Source: Chrysochromulina tobinii (Eukaryota; Haptophyta; Prymnesiales; Chrysochromulinaceae). Taken from it: DNA of 23,156 nt. Of the stretch, positions 918 to 22,986 are shown in pieces (the stretch's first letter is position 1; each line of letters starts with the position of its first letter). The notes beneath the pieces were generated by a model. That model saw only the letters and a list, made by a program, of their open reading frames with translations, was not told where the DNA came from and made no database searches. The translations under genes were made by a program, and so were the position numbers. The stretch spans positions 1-23,156 of the forward strand of contig JWZX01001842.1 of the NCBI GenBank assembly GCA_001275005.1. Reading direction: 5' to 3'.

Positions 918-1311
918 GTGTAAACGCCCGGCGAGAGAACAAGAAGGGCTGGAGGAGAAGGCCACGTGGGGGTGAATCATGAAGCTGCTCCCTCCGTTCG
1001 CAGTGACCTTAGGGTCGTCTTGGGCCAAAATGGCACAGTGGTGAGCACTTGAATGCACCCGAGGAGACAGAGGCTGGGCACGAGAGGAGCGCCTGTAGGG
1101 AAGAGGAGTCAGGGGTGGAGCACGTCAGGCAGTAGAGGCATCGGCGGAGTGAGGACACCGTCCGGACGGAGTGAGCTGCCAGGTTCCACTCCACACGTCG
1201 ATGGGTACTGCTCTCTCCGAGCGTGAGTAACCCAACGACGCGCCGGTGGAAGGGGGTAGGAGTTTTGGAACCTGTTTGCTCAGTTCCCCCCTCCGTCACC
1301 TGTGGCCAAAA
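918..1311. other. Gap, possibly the 3' part of the next gene
   Basis: No recognisable gene. On the minus strand, a GT donor at 1371 (after AAG) and an AG acceptor at 1300-1301 would remove 72 nt. They would join the upstream gene in frame to an open stretch ending at 1009. That stretch has no recognisable domain. A second acceptor-like pyrimidine tract followed by CTACAG lies near 1098. The true 3' end of the minus-strand gene is therefore unresolved. Confidence 0.3.
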
Positions 1312-4300
1312 TCAACGAGAATCGAACAACGGAAAGGGATTGGGTGTTAAGGGCCACACTTTGAAATGCACCTTGCCCTCGAGCAGCTGAAACACACGCT
1401 GAAACATCTTGCCGCCATCTCCGTGAGCGTTGAAGAGGTAGGCAATCAGCATCCAATCAAGGGCTTTGCACACCAAACGTGGGTCGGTAAGCGCGCGAAG
1501 CACCTTGGTAAGCGCGCGAAGCATCGCGAAGCCGTCCTCGTGGCCATCAGTGCTTGCACTGGGTCGCAGCAGCATAGGAGCGCCCTCTGCGAACATCAGC
1601 GTGCGCTTGAAGGACGCTGCTACCATCGGCGGGGGACGCGGCCGGCGCGCGAGCACTGTGCGCAGAGCGTCAGCGCATCGGCGCACTGTGTGCCATTTGA
1701 CATGCTTCTTCTCAGTGGATAGGTCGACGTAGCGAAAGGTTGACAGCGAGCGGTGCAACATCGCAAAGAGGAAGTTGCATGCATGTAAGTCCGCAAGCTC
1801 CACCGCCGCATGCGCCTCTGTCGGGTCGTCTGAGCGCGAGCACTGGCTGCACATGGCGCTCAGCTGGAAGGCGAGCTTGAGCACGCGTGCCGCGAGATCG
1901 AACCTGATGATGAAGGCAATCAATAGATCATTAGAGAGGTCATCCGAGGTCATCAGAGGTCATCAGAGGGTTCTCCACCTTCGAGATCGAAAGCTGGTGC
2001 TCGGCCCATGTGGACGGCGCGACCTGGTCAAACATTTCCCATAGCTCGAGCGGCTCGGGCGGCGAATCGAGGAGCATCTTGTCACTTCCCCACAGTAGCC
2101 GATCGACGATCTCGCACTCCCTGTGTCATGCGGCGCTCGCACACGGCTGCGTCGTGGACCAACACGTCCTCGAGCAGTTGAAGCAGCCTCGCGTCGCCAT
2201 CCTCAATGCAAGCCACGTGCAGCTCGCATTGAGCGCCGGGAGGTCGAGGCGCGTGTGGCGCACCTCGTACCGGATGATGTCGAGCGTCGCGAGGCCGGCT
2301 GCCCAGTGCTTACCGCCATTGTTCACGAGCAGTGCCACCTCAACACGCAGCGTGAGGGCCTGGGAGAGCGGCGCGAGCAGCATGGACACCATGGCCATGT
2401 GGTTGGGGTCTTCCTTCGAGGCGCTCGGCGCGGCCTTGGTCTCGAAGATGCAAGGCTGGCCTGCCGGGTCAAACTGCTCGACGCTCGCTACCTTGCCTGG
2501 GGTGGCGCCCGGCGCAGCCACTCGCAACTCGAAGCGCTCGGAGGCGGGCAGCGCCATCTCGAGCATGCCATAGGATCGATGCAACTCGGCTTGGTGCTTG
2601 GAGACGGCCTGCGTGGCCTGAAAGCGGCGCAGGTCGTGCACAAGCTGACCGAACTCGGTGAGCTCGAGGGTGCCAGATTGGTACGACGCCGTACTGCATG
2701 ATCTCCACGATCTCGCGCGACGAGGCGCTCAGCTTGAGGTCACTCAGTGCGGTGCTCAGTTCGTCAAGGTCGATGGAGCCACTTGAGTCCTTGTCGTACG
2801 TACGGAAGATGGTGAGCACATCATCGGTCACGTGCCGACACACCTTGCGTCCCTGCTGCGGACGGAAGTCGACCTCGGGAGTGGCCCTGCCCGCCACAGA
2901 ACGTCAAGTACAAGTTGCGCCGCGGCACGCCAAGATAGACGAGCTGCTCCAGACACGCAGTCGCGCGCTTCTTCGCGAGTAGGTCCATGACAGCATTGCA
3001 GTCCTCGGTCGCGCGCAGCTTGAAGAGCGCGGCGAGGTCCTCGTCGGCACGTCCCTCTTCGGGGTAAGTCGTCTGCCCATGCACCTCGAGCGACGCCTCC
3101 GGGTGCCGCAGCATGATCGAGGCGATGCCTTCGAGCGTGGCGAGGTTCCTCAGCAACTTCTCCTGGTTGAGATGTTCGATGCTCCACGATTGCGCGAGCC
3201 CCCACGACGAGCTCTTGGTCGCGTCTTCGCTCGCGCCATTGAAGACGACTCGGTGCTCCTCGGCCTGCAGGAAGGCGTACCGGCGGTGGCGGCGGCGGCG
3301 GCGGCGTCGGGGGCAGCGGCGCCGGCATCGGCGCCGGCGTCGGCCTCGCTCAACGTCGCTTCGGCGACGACGGCGGCCGCTGAGGGCGACGCGGCCGCCG
3401 CTGCCGAGGTGAGCTCATGGAGCTGCTGCTGCAGCCGCGAGGCGATGCGAGCCATCTCGCACATGAGCTCGCTCTCGACGCGCTCCATGTCCACGTCACT
3501 CATGGGCTGCGCGCGCTGGCGCAACTGGAGCTTCTGCGACTTGAGACGCAGCTTGATCAGCTGCTGCCACGAGTCTGCCAATGCCTGCTCCGCCTCCGAC
3601 GCCGCGAAGGCTCCGGGATTCGGATTCGGTCCCATGCCTGCCTTGGTCCGTACCATCTCGAGGTACGCGAGATCAGCCTCGGCAAGGTGCTCGAGGGACT
3701 GCTCATCTTGCTCGAGCATCGCCATCATGCGCTCGTCGCGCGCGTCCGTCTGGGTCGCGATCTCGGTCGCGATCTCGCGCGCCGGCAAGCTGCCACTCCC
3801 GCCGCCGCCGCCGCCGTCCTCACCGACCACGCCGTTATGCCGGCGCACCGCATCCGCGTAGGTTCGCATCCGCAGCGAACGTGCGAAGCTCGCCATGCCG
3901 GAGGGGGTGCGCAGACGGTTGAGCGTGTGCCGGTTGTGCATGTCGCTGCTGCGCTGCGCGCGGCGCCGTGCGCGGGCAACCTCGCGAGCCACGGCCTGGC
4001 TCGTCAACAGCAACAGCGGAGCCATGCTGGGGCCGCCGCAGCTCGCGCCAGCGCACGCGCCGGGGCCGGGGCCGACGCCGCCGGCGCGTCCGAGGCTGCC
4101 GAGGCCGCCAACGTGGCCCATCGCAGAAGGCGTGGCGCCACCTAGCTGGCCAATGAGCCAAGGCACATGGGGACGTGGCGGCTGCTGCCAAAAGTCCGTG
4201 GGCGCCGGTATTCCCAAATTTGGCGGCTCTGCCTCAGGCGCTGGCTGCGCAGCCTCAGCCTCGTCCTCGGTGGTCGCGCTCGCCTCGAGCACAACCGGCG

Positions 4301-4589
4301 GCGGCACGGGCGCGGCGGGCATGCCACTGCTGCCTCCACTCTCTATGCTTGCGGAGCGGGAAGCGGCAGCCTTCTTTGCTCGCGCGAGCATGGCACCCAC
4401 CTCGTTGAGATGACGGAGCCGTGCGGAATCGGCAGCACGCGTGCGTGCATTGGCCTTCACAGACATTTGCGGCGGCTGTCGTGGTTGGCGCACGGCGCTG
4501 GCGTGCTCTGGCGAGGCATGCATGCTCCCCTGCGCCTGAGAGCGAGAGATTCCTGAACTCGCAGTGCCTGCTGGTGCAAGCGCAGCCAT
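1312..4589 (-). CDS. Coiled-coil / OmpA-like / EF-hand / helical protein, frame-broken
   Basis: The start is the first ATG at 4587-4589; the more upstream frame opens only with GTG. The first ~430 residues are low complexity plus coiled coil (helical stretch from about 3800 down to 3420). Next comes an OmpA/MotB-C-like domain at about 3270-2895: VVFNGAS strand, a helix, LEVHGQT, then ACLEQLVYLGVPRRNLYLTF. A canonical EF-hand loop follows at 2760-2795 (DKDSSGSIDLDE), with a second degenerate loop at 2651-2681 (SGTLELTEF). The remainder, down to 1312, is an Ala/Leu-rich helical region resembling a solenoid, which I cannot assign. The frame changes at about 3250-3330, 2895-2905, 2665-2690, 2225-2260 and 2110-2135. 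Most of these steps are too narrow for an intron, so they are either sequence errors or decay. An intron at 1904-1994 is well supported. A calcium-responsive role is inferred from the EF-hand only; the OmpA-like domain in a eukaryote need not bind peptidoglycan. Confidence 0.6.
1904..1994 (-). other. 91-nt GC-AG intron, introner-like
   Basis: Read on the minus strand, the donor is CCA|GCTTTCGATCTCG and the acceptor is CATCATCAG|GTTCGATCTCG. Removing 91 nt joins WAEHQ to FDLAARVLKLAF in frame, which neither flanking frame achieves alone. The 5' end of the intron (TTCGATCTCG, at 1982-1991) is repeated just after the acceptor (1893-1902). The interior has three TGATGACCTC-like units, a CTAAT branch-like site 26 nt before the acceptor, and the ending TGATTGCCTTCATCATCAG, shared with the two introns of the next gene. 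A GTGG donor at 1978 gives 75 nt and does not restore the frame. Confidence 0.7.
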
Positions 4590-5059
4590 CGCACGTTGCG
4601 CTCGCGCGAGGCTACAGGCAGGGAGCGAGTGTAGGCAGCGAGACACAGGTACCTGCACGGCGTGCAGGCTCAGCGCTCACGTGTGCTCTCAGTCGTAATT
4701 GTCGCCAGCGGAGGCACAAAAGGCCGATCCCCTTCGGAGGGGCGGAAACATGGTGACGAAACCAACTTTTCGTGATCGACGGAGCTGAGTTTGAAAGTGA
4801 GCACGTGTTCCCTCCGTAAGAGCGTATTGATGGTGTTCGTGCGAGCACACGATCTCGTTTGCGAGTTTGAGTGACCAAGCAACGACATCACCAAGGTCTC
4901 CGTGCGCCGGGGGCGCGACTCAAGAACAAACACAGAGTAGTAGAAGAAGAAGCCAAGGTACTCGCGTCGCGCGAGCGCGACTGATGCGTGATGGAGTCGT
5001 ATCAGTCGTTCACCTCCGAAACTGTTGCCTGTTGGTCTTTAGGTGGTCAGTGCCTGAGG
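4590..5059. other. Intergenic gap, nothing recognised
   Basis: This lies between the start of the frame-broken gene and the stop of the glycosyltransferase, both on minus, so it should hold a 3' UTR and a promoter. A purine-rich stretch (AGTAGTAGAAGAAGAAG) lies at about 4936-4952. No clear TATA box or polyadenylation signal stands out, and no small ORF is convincing. Confidence 0.5.
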
Positions 5060-7660
5060 TCACGCGTGCCCGGACTGCCGTCCCGAAGGGTGGCGTCTCA
5101 CACGAGGGCAGCCAGGCACGTCGTTGACGAAGCCGGCGCTCTCCACGCTCCACGGCTGCGACTGCTGCTCCCGCCGACGGCGCACGGCGCCCACGGCGGC
5201 GCACGAGTGCCCCAAGCATGCATCGAGCCGATGAAGGACCGCATAGAGCTGCCCGTGGCAGTTATACACCAACCCGCGCCTGTCGACCCAGAGGCGGCCG
5301 AGGTCGAAGCGATCAAACGTGAGGAACCGCGACGCGCCGAGCGGCGGCGCAGCGACCCGCTCGGGAAAGGCCAGCGCAAAGGCGTTGAGTCGTCCCTGAT
5401 CGCACCACGGGCCTGCCGAGGCGAGCAGCCAGTCGAGATAGGCCAGCAGCGTCGGCAACTGCCCGAGGATGACGCCCGAGTTGAGGACCGTCCGACCGGT
5501 AAAGGTGCGCGGATCGCGCCCGTCCGAGCGAAGCATCTCGTCGCCGCCCACACTCGATGGGTTGGCCAGCTCGCCATACCTGTTCGCCTCGGCACCCACG
5601 TAGAGCTGCTCGGCGGGCGGCGGCGGCTCGAATGGGGAGGCTTGGAAGCTCACCTGATGAGGGAGGCAATCAGTCGCAATCAATGTCAATCAATGGCAAT
5701 CAAGGGGGGGTGCCCACGATGGAGGAGGCTTGGAAGCTCACATCACTCACGTCGGCCAGCAACGCGAGACCCACACCACCACCGCCGCCGCCGCCGCCGC
5801 CGCCGCTTAGCCGCTCCCGCAATACGTCCCGCGCGACTGCAAACTTGATCGCCTTGCGAAGCCGGTCGTTCCAGCGCTTGGAACGGCGCGGCACGCCGGA
5901 GCCGTTACGAACCCAAGTGTACTCGCGGAGCGCGTACCGGTAGAGGGTCGCGCCGTGTTGGGCGCAGGCCGCTTCCACGCCCTCGCCGACGCGGCTGCGC
6001 TCGGAGACGATGACCACGTCGGCCGCGCTCGGGGGGAGGACCGACCGGAGCGCGGACAGGAACTCGAGCAACCCCGCCCTCGCGGGTAGGCTCTCATGCA
6101 CACCGAGCACCAGCGGCAGACGAGGCTTCACTGAGACGAGGCTGCCGCCGATCCCACCGCTCTCGACACGGCTGTAACCGCTGTAACCGCTGTAACCGCC
6201 GATCCCACCGCTCTCGACACGGCTGGAACTGCTGCTGCTCCGAATGCTCCGGCTGCCACTGCCGCTACCGGCGTCGCCATCGCCGCCGCGACGTGAACCC
6301 CTCAGTGGAGCCCCCATCAGTGGAGCCGAGGCATTGATGACCCCTGATGACCCCTGATGACCCTTGATGACATCATCCATCAGTGGAGCCGAGGCATTGA
6401 GAGCCCACCCCACCGCATCGCCGGCGCTGCCGCCAGCGATGCTGCCGGCGACGCTGCCGGCGACGCTGCCGGCGACGCTGCTAGCGGTCGACACCGCGAC
6501 GTAACGCTCCCCTCTGTCGCTGAGCAGTTGTCGCAGCTGCGGCCTGTGAGCGGCAAGCGCGGCCGTGAAGGCGACTTGACGCATCGCGAGCACCTGCGGC
6601 GGCCGGCGGCGCAGCGCATTCCACAGATGGCACACCAATTGGCGCGGGTCCCCAAAGCAGCGCAGCTCCTCGGGCGAGGAAGCGGTGAGGCGCATGGCCT
6701 CGTACTCTGCGATCGGGTCAGTCGATCGTCCGACACGCTCAGCATCGAACCACGCGGGCGTGTTGAAGAGGCGGGCAGAGACCACGTCCACTTCCGCCGG
6801 CCAGAGTGCCTTCATGCGCTGCGCACACGCTTGCTCGGGCGCGCCGCGACCAAGGGTGCCCACCTGCATGCAATGAGGGAGGTAATCAGCATGCAATGAG
6901 GGAGGCAATCACCGACCAAGGGTGCCCCCACCTCACACCCGTCGCGCTCCGCCCACCATTTCACACGTGCCCGCGCACGCGCCGTGTTGCGCACGAGGTA
7001 GGCGCCGCTGTTGATGAGGCACCAGGGTACATGCTTGGCGCCCGTCACCTTGCGATGCGCCATGCGCTCCAGCGCACGCGCCGAGCAGCCTGCGGCCGCG
7101 CGCCCGCATCGGCACTGACCGCCCACGTGGCACGTCGCGCCGTCCGCCTCGGCAAAGGGCGAGTGGCAAGGGAAGACGAACGACGGGCCGTCGAGCGGGA
7201 GCAGCCGCTCGATGGTACCCTCGAGTGACGAGCTCACATTGTTCACAACCGCGTCGCCGTCCAGGTAGAAGACGACGGCGCACGCGTCCTCGCCGCGCTC
7301 GAGCATCACATGCACCGCGAGCGGGTTGGACCACACGGCCGGGATCGTCTCCGGCACTAATCGCTCCGTGAAGAGCGCATACGTGTACCCGTGCGCCAAC
7401 GCCCAATTCAGCGTTTGCTCCACGGCGTGGCCGCCCCAGCCGCCGAGCAGGTTGGCCGTCATGACCGTCACCACGCACACACTTGGCTGCGCACGCCTCG
7501 CGGGCTGGAACTCGCGGACTGCGTGAGCAGAAAAGTCCAGGCTGCTCGACGGCCGCTGTGCGGCATGCGAAGGTGCCGCATGCGCCGACACTCTGCAAGC
7601 GCGAGGGTGTCGCCGGCAGCACGAGGAGCGCGGGTCGTCCGTGATCGGGCACCCGGCCAT
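5060..7660 (-). CDS. Two-domain glycosyltransferase-like protein
   Basis: Three exons: 7660-6932, 6863-5742 and 5653-5060. The first ATG of the frame is at 7658-7660. Domain 1 resembles nucleotide-diphospho-sugar transferases of the GT34 (GMA12/MNN10) type: a CVVTVMTANLLGG strand, the DxD motif in FYLDGDAVVNN, then CLINSGAYLVRNT, WWAERDGCE, and after the first intron WPAEVDVVSARLFNTPAWF. A low-complexity linker follows (VAGS repeats, two direct duplications). Domain 2 has LPLVLGVHESL, the acidic motif LLADVSD-VSFQASPF, VLNSGVILG and DQGRLNAF, a pattern I associate with another algal sugar-transferase-like family. Both introns are needed to keep frame. No signal anchor is visible after the ATG, so an upstream exon may be missing if the enzyme is Golgi-resident. 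Substrate unknown; tandem domains could build two linkages. A transferase fold is likely, activity is inferred. Confidence 0.75.
5654..5741 (-). other. 88-nt introner-like intron splitting ADVSD/VSFQAS
   Basis: On the minus strand the intron begins GTGAGCTTCCAAGCCTCC and ends TGATTGCCTCCCTCATCAG. The next exon begins with the same 18 bases, so 5636-5653 and 5724-5741 are an exact direct repeat. The length of 88 is not a multiple of 3, and removal joins the two coding frames. The interior carries four ~10-nt ATTGATTGNC units. A second possible donor (GTGGGC at 5717, giving 64 nt) is also in frame and would repeat VSFQASSI/VSFQASPF in the protein. Confidence 0.85.
6145..6225. repeat. 30-bp direct repeat in the linker (51-bp unit)
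   Basis: An exact 30-bp sequence occurs at 6145-6174 and 6196-6225, separated by a 21-bp spacer made of CTGTAACCG-like 9-mers. The 51-bp period keeps frame and duplicates RVESGGIGG in the protein, with GYSGYSGYS between the copies. It has the same layout, flank duplicated around a simple-repeat core, as the introner-like introns, but contains no TGATTGCC ending. Confidence 0.8.
6314..6400. repeat. 24-bp direct repeat around a TGATGACC-rich core
   Basis: An exact 24-bp repeat at 6314-6337 and 6377-6400 flanks a 39-bp core containing TGACCCCTGATGACCCC-type units on the + strand. The core resembles the interior of the intron at 1904-1994, but relative to its host gene it lies in the opposite orientation. 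The 63-bp period keeps frame, and the copy reads through as NASAPLM-DDVIKGHQGSSGVI-NASAPLM. It is probably retained as coding sequence. Confidence 0.75.
6864..6931 (-). other. 68-nt introner-like intron
   Basis: On the minus strand the donor is GAG|GTGGGGGCACCCTTGG and the acceptor is GCATGCAG|GTGGGCACCCTTGG. The intron start is repeated after the splice site with a 2-nt length difference (6847-6863 versus 6913-6931). The core is a tandem pair of TGATTGCCTCCCTCATTGC-like units. The length of 68 nt shifts frame, and its removal joins WWAERDGCE to VGTLGRGAPEQ, consistent with one continuous domain. Confidence 0.85.
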
Positions 7661-8014
7661 TAATAAATGAGGGGCCGTGTGAATGATAAGTCGTACCGGT
7701 AATGTAGAGAACTCTACAGACCTCCTGACTCGCTCCTCCAAAATCTCTGCCGGACGCACGACGCAGCCGTTCCACTCCCACACACATACAGCGTCCTCTC
7801 TCGCATCTCACCTGACCGACGGCTGGCTGGCGGTCCATGCGCCAGTGTGCTTCTATCTCCACTCGGAGCTCCCGTGGCGTGCTGCCGGGAGGAGCTCCCC
7901 ATCAGATGAGCGAGCAGTGCGCGCGTCGCAGCACCTGTTCTCTCTTCTCTCTCAGGACACGCGTCCGATGCGGTCGGCCCGCGCTCAGTACGGCGCTCAG
8001 TTAAGATTCTGGTC
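7661..8014. other. Intergenic gap, nothing recognised
   Basis: This is the region upstream of the glycosyltransferase and downstream of the SHIPPO-repeat gene, both on minus. It holds an AT-richer patch (CATTAATAAATGAG at about 7658-7671) next to the chosen start. No other motif I can support. Confidence 0.4.
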
Positions 8015-10210
8015 TCAGGGCACGCCCCACGCGCCCGTGTCGCGGAGCGTCGTGCTCGCAAACGCGCCGGTGACGCGCCCCTTGGCAGAGCTCTGATCCA
8101 CTGTCTGCTTTGTCGGGTCGATCGCGTCATACTCCCCCGGCGCGGGTGTCGCTTTGGTCTGATGCAGATGGCGTGCTGCCTTCTGACCGAATCCGCTGCC
8201 GCTCTTGCCCACGCGCGCGTTGAACGACTTGACCTGCCCCATGCCGTCGTTGGCGTGCGGGTCGTAGTCCGTCGACTGCGGCGCCGACGTCTGACGAAGC
8301 TCCGCGAGCTTCACCGACTTGGACGCAAAGGCGGCCGACGGCTTCGCGTCCGATGGCTTCGCATCCGGCGCCTCATACGTGCCCGGGCCCGGCGTCTCGG
8401 CCGGCGTCCGGAGGAACGCCTCGGGCCGGCGCACGGCCGTGCCGAAGCCGCCGCTGCCCGCTGCCGCGGACTTGTTGAACGACTTTGCGGCGGCCGAGGC
8501 CATCGATCCGAGCGCGTGCGCGTTGTACGCGCCGGGCGCGGGCGCGTCGCTCCCCTTGGGCGTGTGGAGGCGCTCCGAACGCGACGAGAAGGCAGCCGAA
8601 GGGGCCGTCGCGGACTCATTGGCCTTGGCAAAGGCACCCGGCCCCACGTAGTACGAGTCGGGTGCCTCGGACGCAGCCGGCAGAAAGGTCTCTCGTTTCG
8701 AGGTGCCGCCGAAGCCCGTGTTCGGCGCGCTCGAAGCGGATTTCGACTTGCTGAAGGCGCCCTCGCGAGCGTCCGAGTAGTCGGCCTGGATGGCCTCGCG
8801 CGTGGGTGCGAACCGGTCAGCTGTGCCGCCCATCGCCTCCGCCTTCTTGTTGAAGGTTCGTGTGGCCGTTGCGGCGAGGCCGTCGTTCGCGTGCGGGTCG
8901 TAGTCCGTCGCCTGCGGCGCTGACGACGGCCGAAGCGTCGCTAGTCGAGCTGATTTGGACGCAAACGCGGCCGACGGCTTTGCGGATTTGGTCGCGTCCG
9001 TTGGCGCGCTCGCATCGTACGCTCCCGGGCCGGGCGCATCCTCATCCTGCTTGGGGCGGCCGAAGGTGCCCTCGCCACGGCCGCGCACACCCGTGCCAAA
9101 GCCGCCGCTGCCTGCGAGGACGGACTTACTGAACGATTTCGAAGCGGCAGACGCAATCGAGCCGAGCGCATGCGCGTTGTACGCGCCGGGCGCGGGGCCT
9201 TCCACCTTCTCCGTGGGCAGCCGTGCCGACTTGGAGGCAAATCCCGCCGAGGGGCCGCTCTTTTGGGTCACCGACGCGAACGCACCCGTAAGCGCGTTGT
9301 CATACGGCCCCAGCTGCGAAGATGGGTTCTTTGCCGCTGCGGCGGCGGCGTCGGCAAACACGGAGGATCGCGACGAGGTGCCGCCGAAGCCGGTGTTGGC
9401 CGCCTTTGAGGACGAAACTGACTTGGACGCGAAGGCGCCCGGCCGGGCGGCCGAGTAGTCGACGCGCGCGTCCTCCTTTGTCGCCTTGAAGCGCTCGCCC
9501 AACCCCATCGTCGATCGTAGCACTCCGTTCGCCCCGGATTTGTTGAACGGCGCGAGCGGCTTGCGGTCGACGTCCTCGTACTCGCCCGGGCCGGGCGTGG
9601 CGGCCTTGGCGGGTGCAAAGCGGTCCTTGGCGCCGCCAAACGCCGCGCTTGGCCCCTTGTGAAAGCTCTTCGACACGCCGAAGCTCGAGGGTACAGGTGT
9701 GTAGTCGTTCGCGCCGCTCTCCGCCCCCTCGCCCGCGTCCTTGCCCGCGTCCTTGCCGGGATTCCAGGTCATCGTGTCGCGGCTTACGCTGCTGCCAAAG
9801 CCGCCCTTCCGGCTCGCCGCCGCCTTCGAGCGGTTCGCCGCCGCGCCAATCGTATTGTAGTTCACATCGTATGCCGTCGTCGCCGTCGAGGCCGGGGCCG
9901 TTGTCCTGTCGAAGCGACCGCTCTTGCTCGCAAAGGCGGCGGAGACGGAGCCCGAACCCTTGGGCGCCACGTTGGCGAACGCGCCTGTCTTCTCACGCGT
10001 GTCGTACGCGCCGATGGATGGTGTCGGCTCCTTGGATGCCGCACTGTCGAAGACGGTCGTGCGCGCAGAGGTGCCGCCCATGCCGCCGACAGCGCTGCTT
10101 CCCGAGCGGGAGAGGCTCTTGCTGAAGGCGCCCGGGCGCGCGCCAGAGTAATCTTCGCGCGTGTCCTGCCTGTCCGGCTTGAAGCGCGAGTCCTGCGAGA
10201 GCAGCGACAT
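8015..10210 (-). CDS. SHIPPO/STPGR-repeat (ODF3-like) protein, 731 aa
   Basis: A single long exon. The first ATG is at 10208-10210 (MSLLSQDSRFKP); the upstream extension starts only with GTG. The protein is built of PGPGxY / PAPGAY turns (PGPGEYEDVD, PAPGAYNAHALGS twice, PGPGAYDA, PGPGTYEA, PAPGEYDA), each followed by SAAFASKS- or GGFG-type stretches. This is the pattern of SHIPPO (STPGR) repeats in outer dense fibre and ciliary microtubule-associated proteins. A larger module recurs about three times: DYSxARxGAFSKS, NTGFGGTS, GxYD, FASKSxRL, PGAYNAHALGS, PGPGxY, TDYDPHANDG. The DNA copies of the NAHALGS block near 8504-8545 and 9160-9200 lie about 655 bp apart. No membrane or enzymatic signature. 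A role on flagellar or cytoplasmic microtubules follows from the family and is not shown directly. Confidence 0.85.
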   Translation of the reverse strand: MSLLSQDSRFKPDRQDTREDYSGARPGAFSKSLSRSGSSAVGGMGGTSARTTVFDSAASKEPTPSIGAYDTREKTGAFANVAPKGSGSVSAAFASKSGRFDRTTAPASTATTAYDVNYNTIGAAANRSKAAASRKGGFGSSVSRDTMTWNPGKDAGKDAGEGAESGANDYTPVPSSFGVSKSFHKGPSAAFGGAKDRFAPAKAATPGPGEYEDVDRKPLAPFNKSGANGVLRSTMGLGERFKATKEDARVDYSAARPGAFASKSVSSSKAANTGFGGTSSRSSVFADAAAAAAKNPSSQLGPYDNALTGAFASVTQKSGPSAGFASKSARLPTEKVEGPAPGAYNAHALGSIASAASKSFSKSVLAGSGGFGTGVRGRGEGTFGRPKQDEDAPGPGAYDASAPTDATKSAKPSAAFASKSARLATLRPSSAPQATDYDPHANDGLAATATRTFNKKAEAMGGTADRFAPTREAIQADYSDAREGAFSKSKSASSAPNTGFGGTSKRETFLPAASEAPDSYYVGPGAFAKANESATAPSAAFSSRSERLHTPKGSDAPAPGAYNAHALGSMASAAAKSFNKSAAAGSGGFGTAVRRPEAFLRTPAETPGPGTYEAPDAKPSDAKPSAAFASKSVKLAELRQTSAPQSTDYDPHANDGMGQVKSFNARVGKSGSGFGQKAARHLHQTKATPAPGEYDAIDPTKQTVDQSSAKGRVTGAFASTTLRDTGAWGVP

Positions 10211-11077
10211 TGCTGTGTTCGAGAGGCTCGTCAGGAGCTTTTGTATTTTCGGGCGTTGAACCGCGCGTGTGGAAGCCACGCCCTTCTAAATTTGGAACGG
10301 CGTCCGTATGCGTTGCGGCTTGCGGGCGGGGTCCCGGGGTGCTGCTGGTTCTATGCCGTATCACCGATTCACCGTATCAGCGGTTCAGCGCCGGGGGTTA
10401 TTCAGTCAGTTATTTCGCGGTCCCGCACACCACACCTCCTACATTGTAAACCTCCGAGGTCTCAAACTCTCAATGCGGACTCAGCTCCGCTGCCCCAATT
10501 GCGCTGCCCCCGAGCAACATTAGATCAACACACAAGTACTGACGGATCTGAGACCCGATCTGTAGAGAGTCTAAGACTGCAGTCTGAAGAGAGACTGAGA
10601 CTTGATCTGAGATTACTGAGAACTCTCACCTCTCGTCGTTATCTCGTCGTCCGCCGTGGGCTTCCTTCCCTTCCTACTGCTACTCAATATTTGTAACTTT
10701 GTAAGCCGTACTGTGTTCGTAGGTTACTACTGACTAGTGAGCTCTAGTGACTGCGGGTATCCATAGCGGGATTTGGGCCGGTTCGGGTCGGAGAACATAT
10801 GTAATCGAATAGATCGCCGTGCGCCGCACGGCATGTCGCATGCCCGATGGCCGATGCCCCCCCCGGGCGGCGCGCGCTGTGTCGGCGGAGAAACCGATGT
10901 GGAAACAAATGTAAACTTGGATGCTAAATTCACGACGCTCCGCGTGCGGGCAGCAATTCTAGGAGATGGTCAACCTCATCAAGCACACGAAATGGTGGAC
11001 ATGGTGGACAACAAGGCGCTAAAGCAGAAGGATGTAGGAATGGGCATTGGCTACTAGTGATGTATTACGAGCGTCAG
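10211..11077. other. Long intergenic gap with small palindromes
   Basis: No convincing gene in about 870 bp. Base composition falls closer to even than in the flanking genes. It includes a 12-bp perfect palindrome AGACTGCAGTCT at 10574-10585 inside a run of GAGAC/GTCTC-like words, and a 7-bp hairpin GCCGTGC-GCC-GCACGGC at 10816-10832. It should contain the promoter of the SHIPPO-repeat gene and the 3' UTR of the next gene. No clear TATA box. Confidence 0.5.
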
Positions 11078-11929
11078 CTACACGCAGCCGCCCGCTGACG
11101 TGTACGACAGGCTCTCGTGGTCCCGGCGAGCGTCCGTCTGTCCCTCACTCGACTCGGCGAGCGCAAAGGCACTTTGGAGCGTCTCGAGCGGCGCGAGCGT
11201 GAACAGGGTGACCGGGTACGCCCGCCGGTGCCACTGCGGGTGCAGCACGATGCCACAGCAACCGATTGGGATCGAGTCGTACCTTAGGAGCGTCGTGAGG
11301 CCCTCTAGCTCATTGTAGATGGCGGAGGTGGGCGTGCCGTAACGCGCAGTGCCCTCCATCGGGCAGCTGCAGTCGGACCAGTACGGCGCGAGAGCCGGCC
11401 GCAAGACCGCTGCCCAACTGTCAAAGTTCCTCAGCAGCCCACGACGCTCAAGGTTGACCGGCGCGCTGATCTCGCTCAGATCGTGCTCCGACGGCTGCCA
11501 CGTCGGGATCGCGAGCAGATGCGCTGCGATGAATTCGTCGAAGGCAACGCCCGCCGGCGCACCGCGCGCGTCCGCCTTGTGCGCCGCCTCAAGGTCCGGA
11601 CGGAAGACGAGCGTGATGTCTGCGCGCAGCAGCCGCGACGGCTTGTGCACGGAGTATTCGATGCGCCAGGATGTGCTCGAGGTGGGCACGACGATCTGGA
11701 TGCAAGGTGAGGAGGCCGCCTTGCTCTTCGCCCGCTCAATCTTGACCTCCGCACCGCCAGTCATGCACATGACCACACCACAGGCAGGTGACTCCACGTC
11801 AGCCACCACGGCCGCGGCCGGCTCCGCAGCTGCGTCGCGCTGCTTGACCTTACGATAGACGAGGTAGTAGATGACGGCAGCGGCTGCAGCGGCGCTCAAA
11901 GCCAACCTCATGGGCGTGGTGGGCGGCAA
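11078..11929 (-). CDS. Hypothetical protein with N-terminal membrane anchor, 283 aa
   Basis: It starts at the ATG of MPPTTPMRLAL; a second ATG at codon 7 is an alternative. Residues ~7-24 (MRLALSAAAAAAVIYYLVY) form a hydrophobic segment followed by RKVKQR, which suggests a signal anchor with the rest on the other side. The remaining ~250 residues look like one soluble domain: IQIVVPTSSTSWRIEYSV, LLRADITLVFRPDLEAAHKA, the conserved-looking LLRNFDSWAAVLRPALAPYWSDCSC, IYNELEGLTTLLRYDSIPIGCCGIVLHPQWHRR and a Ser/Gly tail. A CSC and a GCCG cysteine pair could be structural or metal-binding. I do not recognise the family and assign no function. It is transcribed away from the SP-rich gene at 12358, so the ~430 bp between them is a shared upstream region. 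Confidence 0.65.
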   Translation of the reverse strand: MPPTTPMRLALSAAAAAAVIYYLVYRKVKQRDAAAEPAAAVVADVESPACGVVMCMTGGAEVKIERAKSKAASSPCIQIVVPTSSTSWRIEYSVHKPSRLLRADITLVFRPDLEAAHKADARGAPAGVAFDEFIAAHLLAIPTWQPSEHDLSEISAPVNLERRGLLRNFDSWAAVLRPALAPYWSDCSCPMEGTARYGTPTSAIYNELEGLTTLLRYDSIPIGCCGIVLHPQWHRRAYPVTLFTLAPLETLQSAFALAESSEGQTDARRDHESLSYTSAGGCV

Positions 11930-22650: not shown

Positions 22651-22839
22651 GTCCTTTTCAATTTAGGTTGTGAAGGTGAGGGGTGACATGCCACAGAGGC
22701 CAGGGCAGCCCCCTCGGTTCACGTCGCGCCGACCTTATGTTCACCCGGCGTCGTTCACACGAACCAGTAGCAGTCCGTCAGTTCCGTCAATTGTAGTCCG
22801 GATGTGACGAAACTGACTCAATACGGTATACGGTATCGC

Positions 22840-22986
22840 GCAATACGCAATACGCAATACGCAATACGCAATACGCAATACGCAATACGCAATAGCGAAT
22901 AGGGTCCCCCAGCCGGACCCAATACCCAATACGCAATACGCAATACGCAATAGGTCGATACGCAATACGCAATACGCAATAGGTCG
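22840..22986 (+). repeat. Heptanucleotide minisatellite (GCAATAC)n, interrupted
   Basis: Seven perfect GCAATAC units plus a partial one run 22840-22894. After a non-repeat insert (about 22895-22919) come variant CCAATAC units and two copies of a ~29-bp higher-order unit, three GCAATA(C/G) ending in GTCG, up to 22986. The repeat opens frames on the minus strand (AYCVLRI repeats) that are artefacts. The flanks 22651-22839 and 22987-23156 show no gene. Confidence 0.95.

Follow-up and report, generated by a model that had tools for sequence, protein, structure and literature searches.

The origin of most spliceosomal introns is disputed, and most of the introners described so far resemble DNA transposons. 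In the 2022 survey by Gozashti et al., introners are intron-making repeat families spread genome-wide in aquatic protists, as are the elements reported here, and duplications of 3-9 bp are cited as a signature of cut-and-paste transposition (PMC9860276). The detection rule, as given in the available text of that survey, asks that similarity start no more than five exonic or ten intronic bases from each boundary, and low-complexity families are removed (PMC9860276). The survey's Symbiodinium example carries a 3' splice site and takes its 5' site from the target duplication, an arrangement that recurs in the putative introns described below (PMC9860276). The published Chrysochromulina tobin genome is given, in the portion of the paper available, as 59 Mb with 63.4% GC and about one intron per gene on average, RNA-seq having been used for annotation (PMC4580454).

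The window analysed here is the whole of a 23,156-nucleotide stretch of Chrysochromulina tobinii (contig JWZX01001842.1), in which a first-pass annotation had read three introns of two adjacent genes as members of one introner family. That reading is supported. Beyond it, we report that a further family, unrelated in sequence, has long repeats of the same kind; that insertion junctions show microhomology; that some copies stay in frame and have no need of splicing; and that the donor of one of the three introns is doubtful.

Results

Introns of the window and their host genes

The three introns have related 3' ends, and their first bases recur after the 3' splice site, both as first annotated (Table 1). 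The recurring stretch is 10 nt in intron 1; in intron 2 it is an exact 18 nt, with which both the intron and the exon that follows it begin; and in intron 3 a 2-nt length difference (GTGGGGG versus GTGGG) directly precedes 15 identical nt. The accompanying claim that the reading frame needs each intron agrees with what was found, with reservations for intron 1. Gene 2 is open in frame 1 once introns 2 and 3 are removed, and gene 1 is open in its 3' part without intron 1. What is doubtful is the GC donor of intron 1: excision to the GT at 2015 preserves the frame likewise and yields VAP-FDL, as in gene model P0014, and the donor may be this GT instead of the GC at 1994. A codon test also went against excision of intron 1, although it was run with the repeat distance of 89, the length of the intron being 91.

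Gene 2 has a weak match to Glyco_transf_34, below the cut-off, and a search for its paralogues in the same genome returned the window's own two exons only. Its exon also holds a fourth copy, in antisense orientation, whose 63 added nt preserve the frame, so that splicing is not required there. The ten bases GTGGGCACCC in the body of intron 2 (5708-5717, minus strand) are the same as those opening the exon after intron 3 (6854-6863, minus strand), and may be a remnant of copying from intron 3. Elsewhere in the window, positions 22839-22981 are occupied by a heptamer array of about 20 copies of CGCAATA.

Table 1. Coordinates of the window introns, their direct repeats and host genes, with the clearest loci of the second family
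Feature	Position	Strand	Description
Intron 1	1904..1994	-	limits of the first-pass annotation; GC-AG, 91 nt; tail TTGATTGCCTTCATCATCAG
Intron 1, rival limits	1904..2015	-	GT donor at 2015; 112 nt, 1 mod 3
Intron 1, upstream direct-repeat copy	1982..1991	-	10 nt, TTCGATCTCG; repeat distance 89
Intron 1, downstream direct-repeat copy	1893..1902	-	10 nt; direct repeat
Intron 2	5654..5741	-	GT-AG, 88 nt; duplicated target, TGATTG x4, exact 19-nt tail TGATTGCCTCCCTCATCAG
Intron 2, upstream target-duplication copy	5724..5741	-	18 nt, GTGAGCTTCCAAGCCTCC; exact; would supply the 5' splice site
Intron 2, downstream target-duplication copy	5636..5653	-	18 nt, exon; exact
Intron 3	6864..6931	-	GT-AG, 68 nt; 23-nt units TGATT(G/A)CCTCCCTCATTGCATGC x2; variant tail TGATTACCTCCCTCATTGCATGCAG
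Intron 3, upstream direct-repeat copy	6913..6927	-	15 nt, GGGCACCCTTGGTCG; direct repeat
Intron 3, downstream direct-repeat copy	6847..6861	-	15 nt; direct repeat
Gene 2, coding span (introns 2 and 3 included)	5060..7660	-	start codon set by eye
Gene 1, 3' part with intron 1	1312..2125	-	open to both sides of the junction; upstream end approximate
Fourth copy (window, C836)	6314..6400	+	antisense in gene 2 exon; 39 nt (three TGATGAC units) between 24-nt direct repeats
Second family, clearest loci (GCATGCAAGTGCTCACCACGGCGCC...CACAG)	L049 (C370) 2326-3220; C40 near 8981 (L008)		

Copies across the genome

The family proposed from three introns proved to extend genome-wide. In the organism's own assembly (53,154,812 bases, 2,253 contigs), tail TGATTGCCTCCCTCATCAG has 1,815 + 1,898 = 3,713 matches with at most two mismatches, and the reversed pattern has 0 + 0. 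The exact tail followed by GT occurs 298 + 292 = 590 times genome-wide; among the matches listed (through C289), GT follows 63 of 99 exact tails in a comparison by eye. Viral contigs were scanned as well, in a set that may omit records close to this genome, and held no exact tail. Copies were studied in a sample of 277,373 non-redundant bases (63.8% GC, close to the published C. tobin assembly) made up of the window, 20 stretches of 10 kb (C10-C390 in steps of 20) and 30 exact-tail loci, which is partly enriched for tails and draws on low contig numbers only. Elsewhere in this genome, a reverse transcriptase lies in a frame open across the whole 3 kb of C1050 1-3000 (L051), LINE-like by our reading. 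The genome also has 58 light-harvesting matches; for one of these, chain 8z11 of the haptophyte Isochrysis galbana is among the top three relatives of solved structure (241.9, 229.8 and 203.7 bits), the fourth scoring 162.3 bits.

Flanking direct repeats are concentrated at the tails. A repeat score of at least 9 was reached by 59 of 202 loose tail candidates (29%), compared with 0.8% when the downstream flank was taken from another contig and 3.4% at the 383 other AG/GTR sites of a comparison set; the 143 candidates without such a repeat may be old, compound or chance matches. Excluding copies whose repeat contains the array motif left 47 copies, and after subtraction of four reverse readings of the array, with 13 stacked copies set apart, 30 non-stacked copies with a flanking repeat remained. 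The next bases are GT in 22 of these, GC in three and others in five. For the 25 GT or GC copies, at least one of them doubtful (C33 14647, whose own repeat is array-like), the repeat measures 10-43 nt with a median of 21 and is free of mismatches in 14. It begins exactly at the GT or GC in 21 copies and 1-2 nt later in the other four, which include introns 1 and 3 of the window; where it starts exactly at a GT, the preceding base is G in 13 of 18.

The 3' end of the element bodies is constant, and their 5' ends vary. The first ten intronic nucleotides differ in 38 of 38 copies, so the similarity near both splice sites on which the published detection rule depends is absent. Terminal inverted repeats were sought at the body ends, where the inverted match averages 5.2 nt as against 5.1 nt in swapped controls, with matches of 7 nt or longer in 10 of 38 copies and in 21% of the controls. 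A branch-site-like TGAT is present in 37 of 38 copies, a count that carries no evidence since TGAT belonged to the selection criteria.

At two places, C101 (L025-L027) and C107 (L028-L030), whole units of duplication plus element are stacked in tandem at steps of 55-70 nt, and evenly spaced tail matches alone suggest further stacks at C1837 6104-6342 and C899 1074-1275. Such stacked units are back-to-back introns or growing arrays. An insertion at C45 4262-4354 (in L010) has a heptamer array, (TGATGAC)n, and a 20-nt duplication ending in CAGG; the array unit is thus not always ten bases.

Evidence that the elements are introns

The clearest single case is a gene on C90 (L035) that has stops in all three frames when unspliced. 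Removal of six elements, two of them stacked, gives one open frame of 875 residues. Its relatives P0007-P0010 (33-60% identity) are gapless at junctions 337, 491, 561 and 585, so that four of the five junctions (all but 735) are covered, to an extent that varies by relative. Where the distance is other than a multiple of three, a codon model favoured excision in 28 of 34 copies (13 of 18 among those followed by GT), window intron 1 being one of the six to the contrary. In the same model the sense strand was preferred for 40 of 47 copies, a total that includes the four reverse array readings.

Introns 1 and 2 are not fixed in relatives, in agreement with the mobile elements envisaged at first pass. 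Comparison at the protein level, at a handful of sites and with listed proteins some of which may be gene models with introns removed, gave uninterrupted forms for intron 1 (P0011, P0013) and for intron 2 (P0002, P0006), and close relatives share both introns. At the intron 2 site, read by eye, DVSDVVFQ is unbroken in P0002 and P0006, the window being split as DVSDV/SFQ. P0003, in turn, runs from DVSDVSFQAS into SIVGTPP, which matches translated window intron 2, and P0004 has decamer-like residues ahead of VSFQASPF. Judged by these residues, P0003 and P0004 are close relatives that carry intron 2.

The intron 1 site, also read by eye, is traversed in P0011 and P0013 through WAEHQRMTFDLAARV, and an intron-like translation stands ahead of RFDLAARV in P0012 and P0015. 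Identity to gene 1 is 96% for P0011 and 97% for P0012, and intron 1 appears to vary between close strains. Gene model P0014 (84% identity over 81% of the query), the only gene 1 relative with an organism in its name (Chrpa1 / Chrysochromulina_OHIO_Genome, Chrpa1 being read here as C. parva), is without the intron 1 region and joins VAP to FDL. Compared with the uninterrupted form, the window would lack RMT if the GC donor is used, and STWAEHQRMT if the GT at 2015 serves as donor, which is the form of P0014; insertion of intron 1 was therefore not scar-free.

Many similar introns at unrelated sites, a frame restored on their removal and empty sites in relatives were thus all found. Assignment of the family to the introners is well supported by these sequence comparisons, and many of its sampled copies are predicted to be spliced.

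A second, unrelated family

The motif GTGCTCACCACGGCGCC has 833 + 873 = 1,706 matches with at most one mismatch, and none in the control. In the sample, GTGCTCACCA is found at 14 places, seven of which have a repeat score of at least 10; two of the other seven fall, by position, in window coding frames and look like chance. The motif CAAGTGCTCACCACTG of this family also occurs 3' of gene 1 (window 1020-1060, minus strand), where a flanking repeat was not detected.

A scan of AG/GT sites showed that copies at C370 2326, 2606 and 3143 and at C40 8981 carry repeats of 15-26 nt that start at GT. All four end in CACAG and have no decamer array. As in the first family, the 3' ends are fixed and the 5' ends variable. 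The occurrence of one insertion style in two unrelated sequences points to a general process rather than to the enzyme of one element.

Junction microhomology and copies without a tail

Microhomology was scored in 42 array insertions with a repeat of at least 12 nt, some of these repeats being array-like themselves; junctions were extrapolated from the period of the array, and repeats from other contigs served as the control. The mean was 1.56 nt at the 5' junction (16 of 42 measurable, range 0-4) versus 0.36 nt in the control, and 2.33 nt at the 3' junction (9 of 42 measurable, range 0-5) versus 0.39 nt. There was none at 6 of the 16 upstream and 2 of the 9 downstream junctions. A smaller count of tail-bearing copies gave 2.0 versus 0.33 at 8 upstream junctions. 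Microhomology at both junctions, as expected of repair-templated insertion, is therefore seen, in the small numbers given by 16 and 9 of 42.

Some insertions lack the tail or remain in frame. The tail-less copy at C80 7288-7402 has a repeated target holding TGCAG/GTGCG, which would give both splice sites, and microhomology of 3 and 4 nt. At C33 1705-1814 CAG closes the target and GT opens the element, and at L031 8102-8159 an insertion of 57 nt is in frame. This freedom suits an insertion step at the DNA level for which splicing is unnecessary, selection then retaining what splices.

Local copying

One tail variant, TGATTGCACTCCTCATCAG, differs from the main tail by three changes and occurs seven times in the genome, six of them on C90, all in one orientation and within 7893-11897. 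By coordinates these six fall at five separate sites; five of the copies are at elements that were read, two of them at one site. This variant, nearly private to C90, is strong evidence for local copying at one locus, and together with the excess of junction microhomology it suggests templated copying of DNA.

Local copying as a general rule was considered and is not established, the similarity and variant tests being not significant apart from C90. Same-variant pairs numbered 18 versus 13.6 expected (P = 0.10, first 100 of 291 matches), and two further variant tests gave 5 versus 2.9 pairs (P = 0.12, all 85) and 5 versus 4.1 (P = 0.37, all 90). Similarity of 45-nt tails within contigs gave P = 0.048 with C90 and P = 0.88 without it. 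The 13 double-variant matches included no same-contig pair besides one stack. Among the matches listed, same-contig pairs of variant tails numbered 35, 8 and 15 versus about 5, 1 and 1.3 expected for equal contigs, the first list reaching C752 and its expectation being divided over 752 contigs; 54 of these 58 pairs are on the same strand. Such clustering may merely reflect genes that hold many introns.

Discussion

The reading that we favour, at a probability of roughly 0.5, is that these elements spread by repair-like, templated copying of DNA. A more specific form of it is put forward tentatively, at somewhat less than even odds: no transposase would be involved, and portable 3' splice sites, in two unrelated families, would be copied by microhomology-guided repair into staggered exon breaks at G/GT. 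The process would begin with a staggered break in an exon, often at G/GT, where fill-in of the overhangs would produce the duplication and hand each copy a ready 5' splice site. A 3' end would then pair, over a few bases, with the TGATT/TGATGA array of an element already present, in some cases a neighbouring one, and copying would proceed through the branch-site-like TGAT, the pyrimidines and CAG, after which the copy would be rejoined at GT to the other end of the break. Immediate splicing of the new segment would as a rule leave the message unchanged, so that selection would keep it; copies landing otherwise would persist only where they kept the frame or where the target supplied the missing splice site.

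The alternative that deserves most attention is target-primed reverse transcription, in which a LINE-type enzyme would copy the excised intron RNA, ending precisely in CAG, into nicked DNA. We regard it as possible though doubtful. The fixed 3' ends and variable 5' ends of both families, with duplications of 10-43 nt, are what a SINE-like element would leave, and microhomology at the 5' junction would fit as well; the genome also has at least 26 reverse-transcriptase matches, one of them a long open frame with RVT_1. Against this, microhomology is found at the 3' junction too, tail-less copies stop anywhere in the array, and a tail variant is private to one contig. A partner LINE sharing its 3' end with the family was looked for at one of the 26 reverse-transcriptase places, the sole LINE-like 3' region read, which contains no decamers.

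Templated DNA copying also has to be set against readings that we consider improbable. Non-autonomous DNA transposons of the MITE kind would account for direct repeats and a high copy number, and duplications of 10-15 bp are said, in the available text of the Amoebophrya study, to be frequent in MITEs (PMC7789003); the duplications here are not of fixed length, the 5' ends vary, and inverted repeats are no better than in swapped controls. Slighter still is the case for tandem duplication of exon pieces, or for minisatellite growth inside older introns, which the 13 stacked copies of 43 and the long decamer arrays might recall. The element body is not copied from the flanking exon, however, the tail recurs 3,713 times, and relatives are unbroken at the sampled sites. 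Chance or an assembly artefact, for which no supporting evidence was found, we consider hardly credible given that the reversed patterns have no matches, that removal of the elements restores the frame of the C90 gene, and that P0003, P0012 and P0015, from other data sets, contain translations of the same introns.

Duplications of 10-43 nt, microhomology at the junctions and the lack of any excess of inverted repeats point to another route of intron birth. Repair-like spread, if true, would make intron birth directly testable. With the first ten intronic bases distinct in every copy and a body that is mostly decamer array, the family would likely be missed under the survey's rules as its available text gives them (PMC9860276); rules of this kind tend to pass over such families, and intron gain by this route may therefore be undercounted. 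Among the open titles and abstract openings listed from the introner and intron-gain literature, a set that the survey supplement lies outside, this family is not described.

Comparison with known systems shows both shared and distinct features. The duplications, called unusually long in the first-pass annotation, are indeed so: at 10-43 nt they exceed the 3-9 bp reported in the available part of the survey (PMC9860276) and the 4-12 bp reported for Daphnia introns (PMC4202315). An introner of a Chrysochromulina sp. in that survey (family 5, TARA_PON_109_MAG_00232) shares the genus name and is likewise without terminal inverted repeats, but its duplication is 4 bp, and it brings a 5' splice site and uses a 3' site of the target, so that the roles are opposite to those here (PMC9860276). 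In Amoebophrya, direct repeats also span the exon-intron borders of introner elements, and mobilisation by a transposase is, in the text available, not generally supported; the direct repeats of 3-5 nt, inverted repeats of 8-20 nt and mostly non-canonical splice sites of those elements are unlike what is seen here (PMC7789003). Daphnia introns have direct repeats at both ends as well, ascribed to filled-in staggered double-strand breaks, whereas a portable 3' splice site shared by a family of repeats is not described in the available part of that paper (PMC4202315). Lastly, in tandem genomic duplication at AGGT the duplicated segment can provide both splice sites, as the tail-less copy at C80 7288-7402 would, but here array sequence separates the two copies (PMC3443670).
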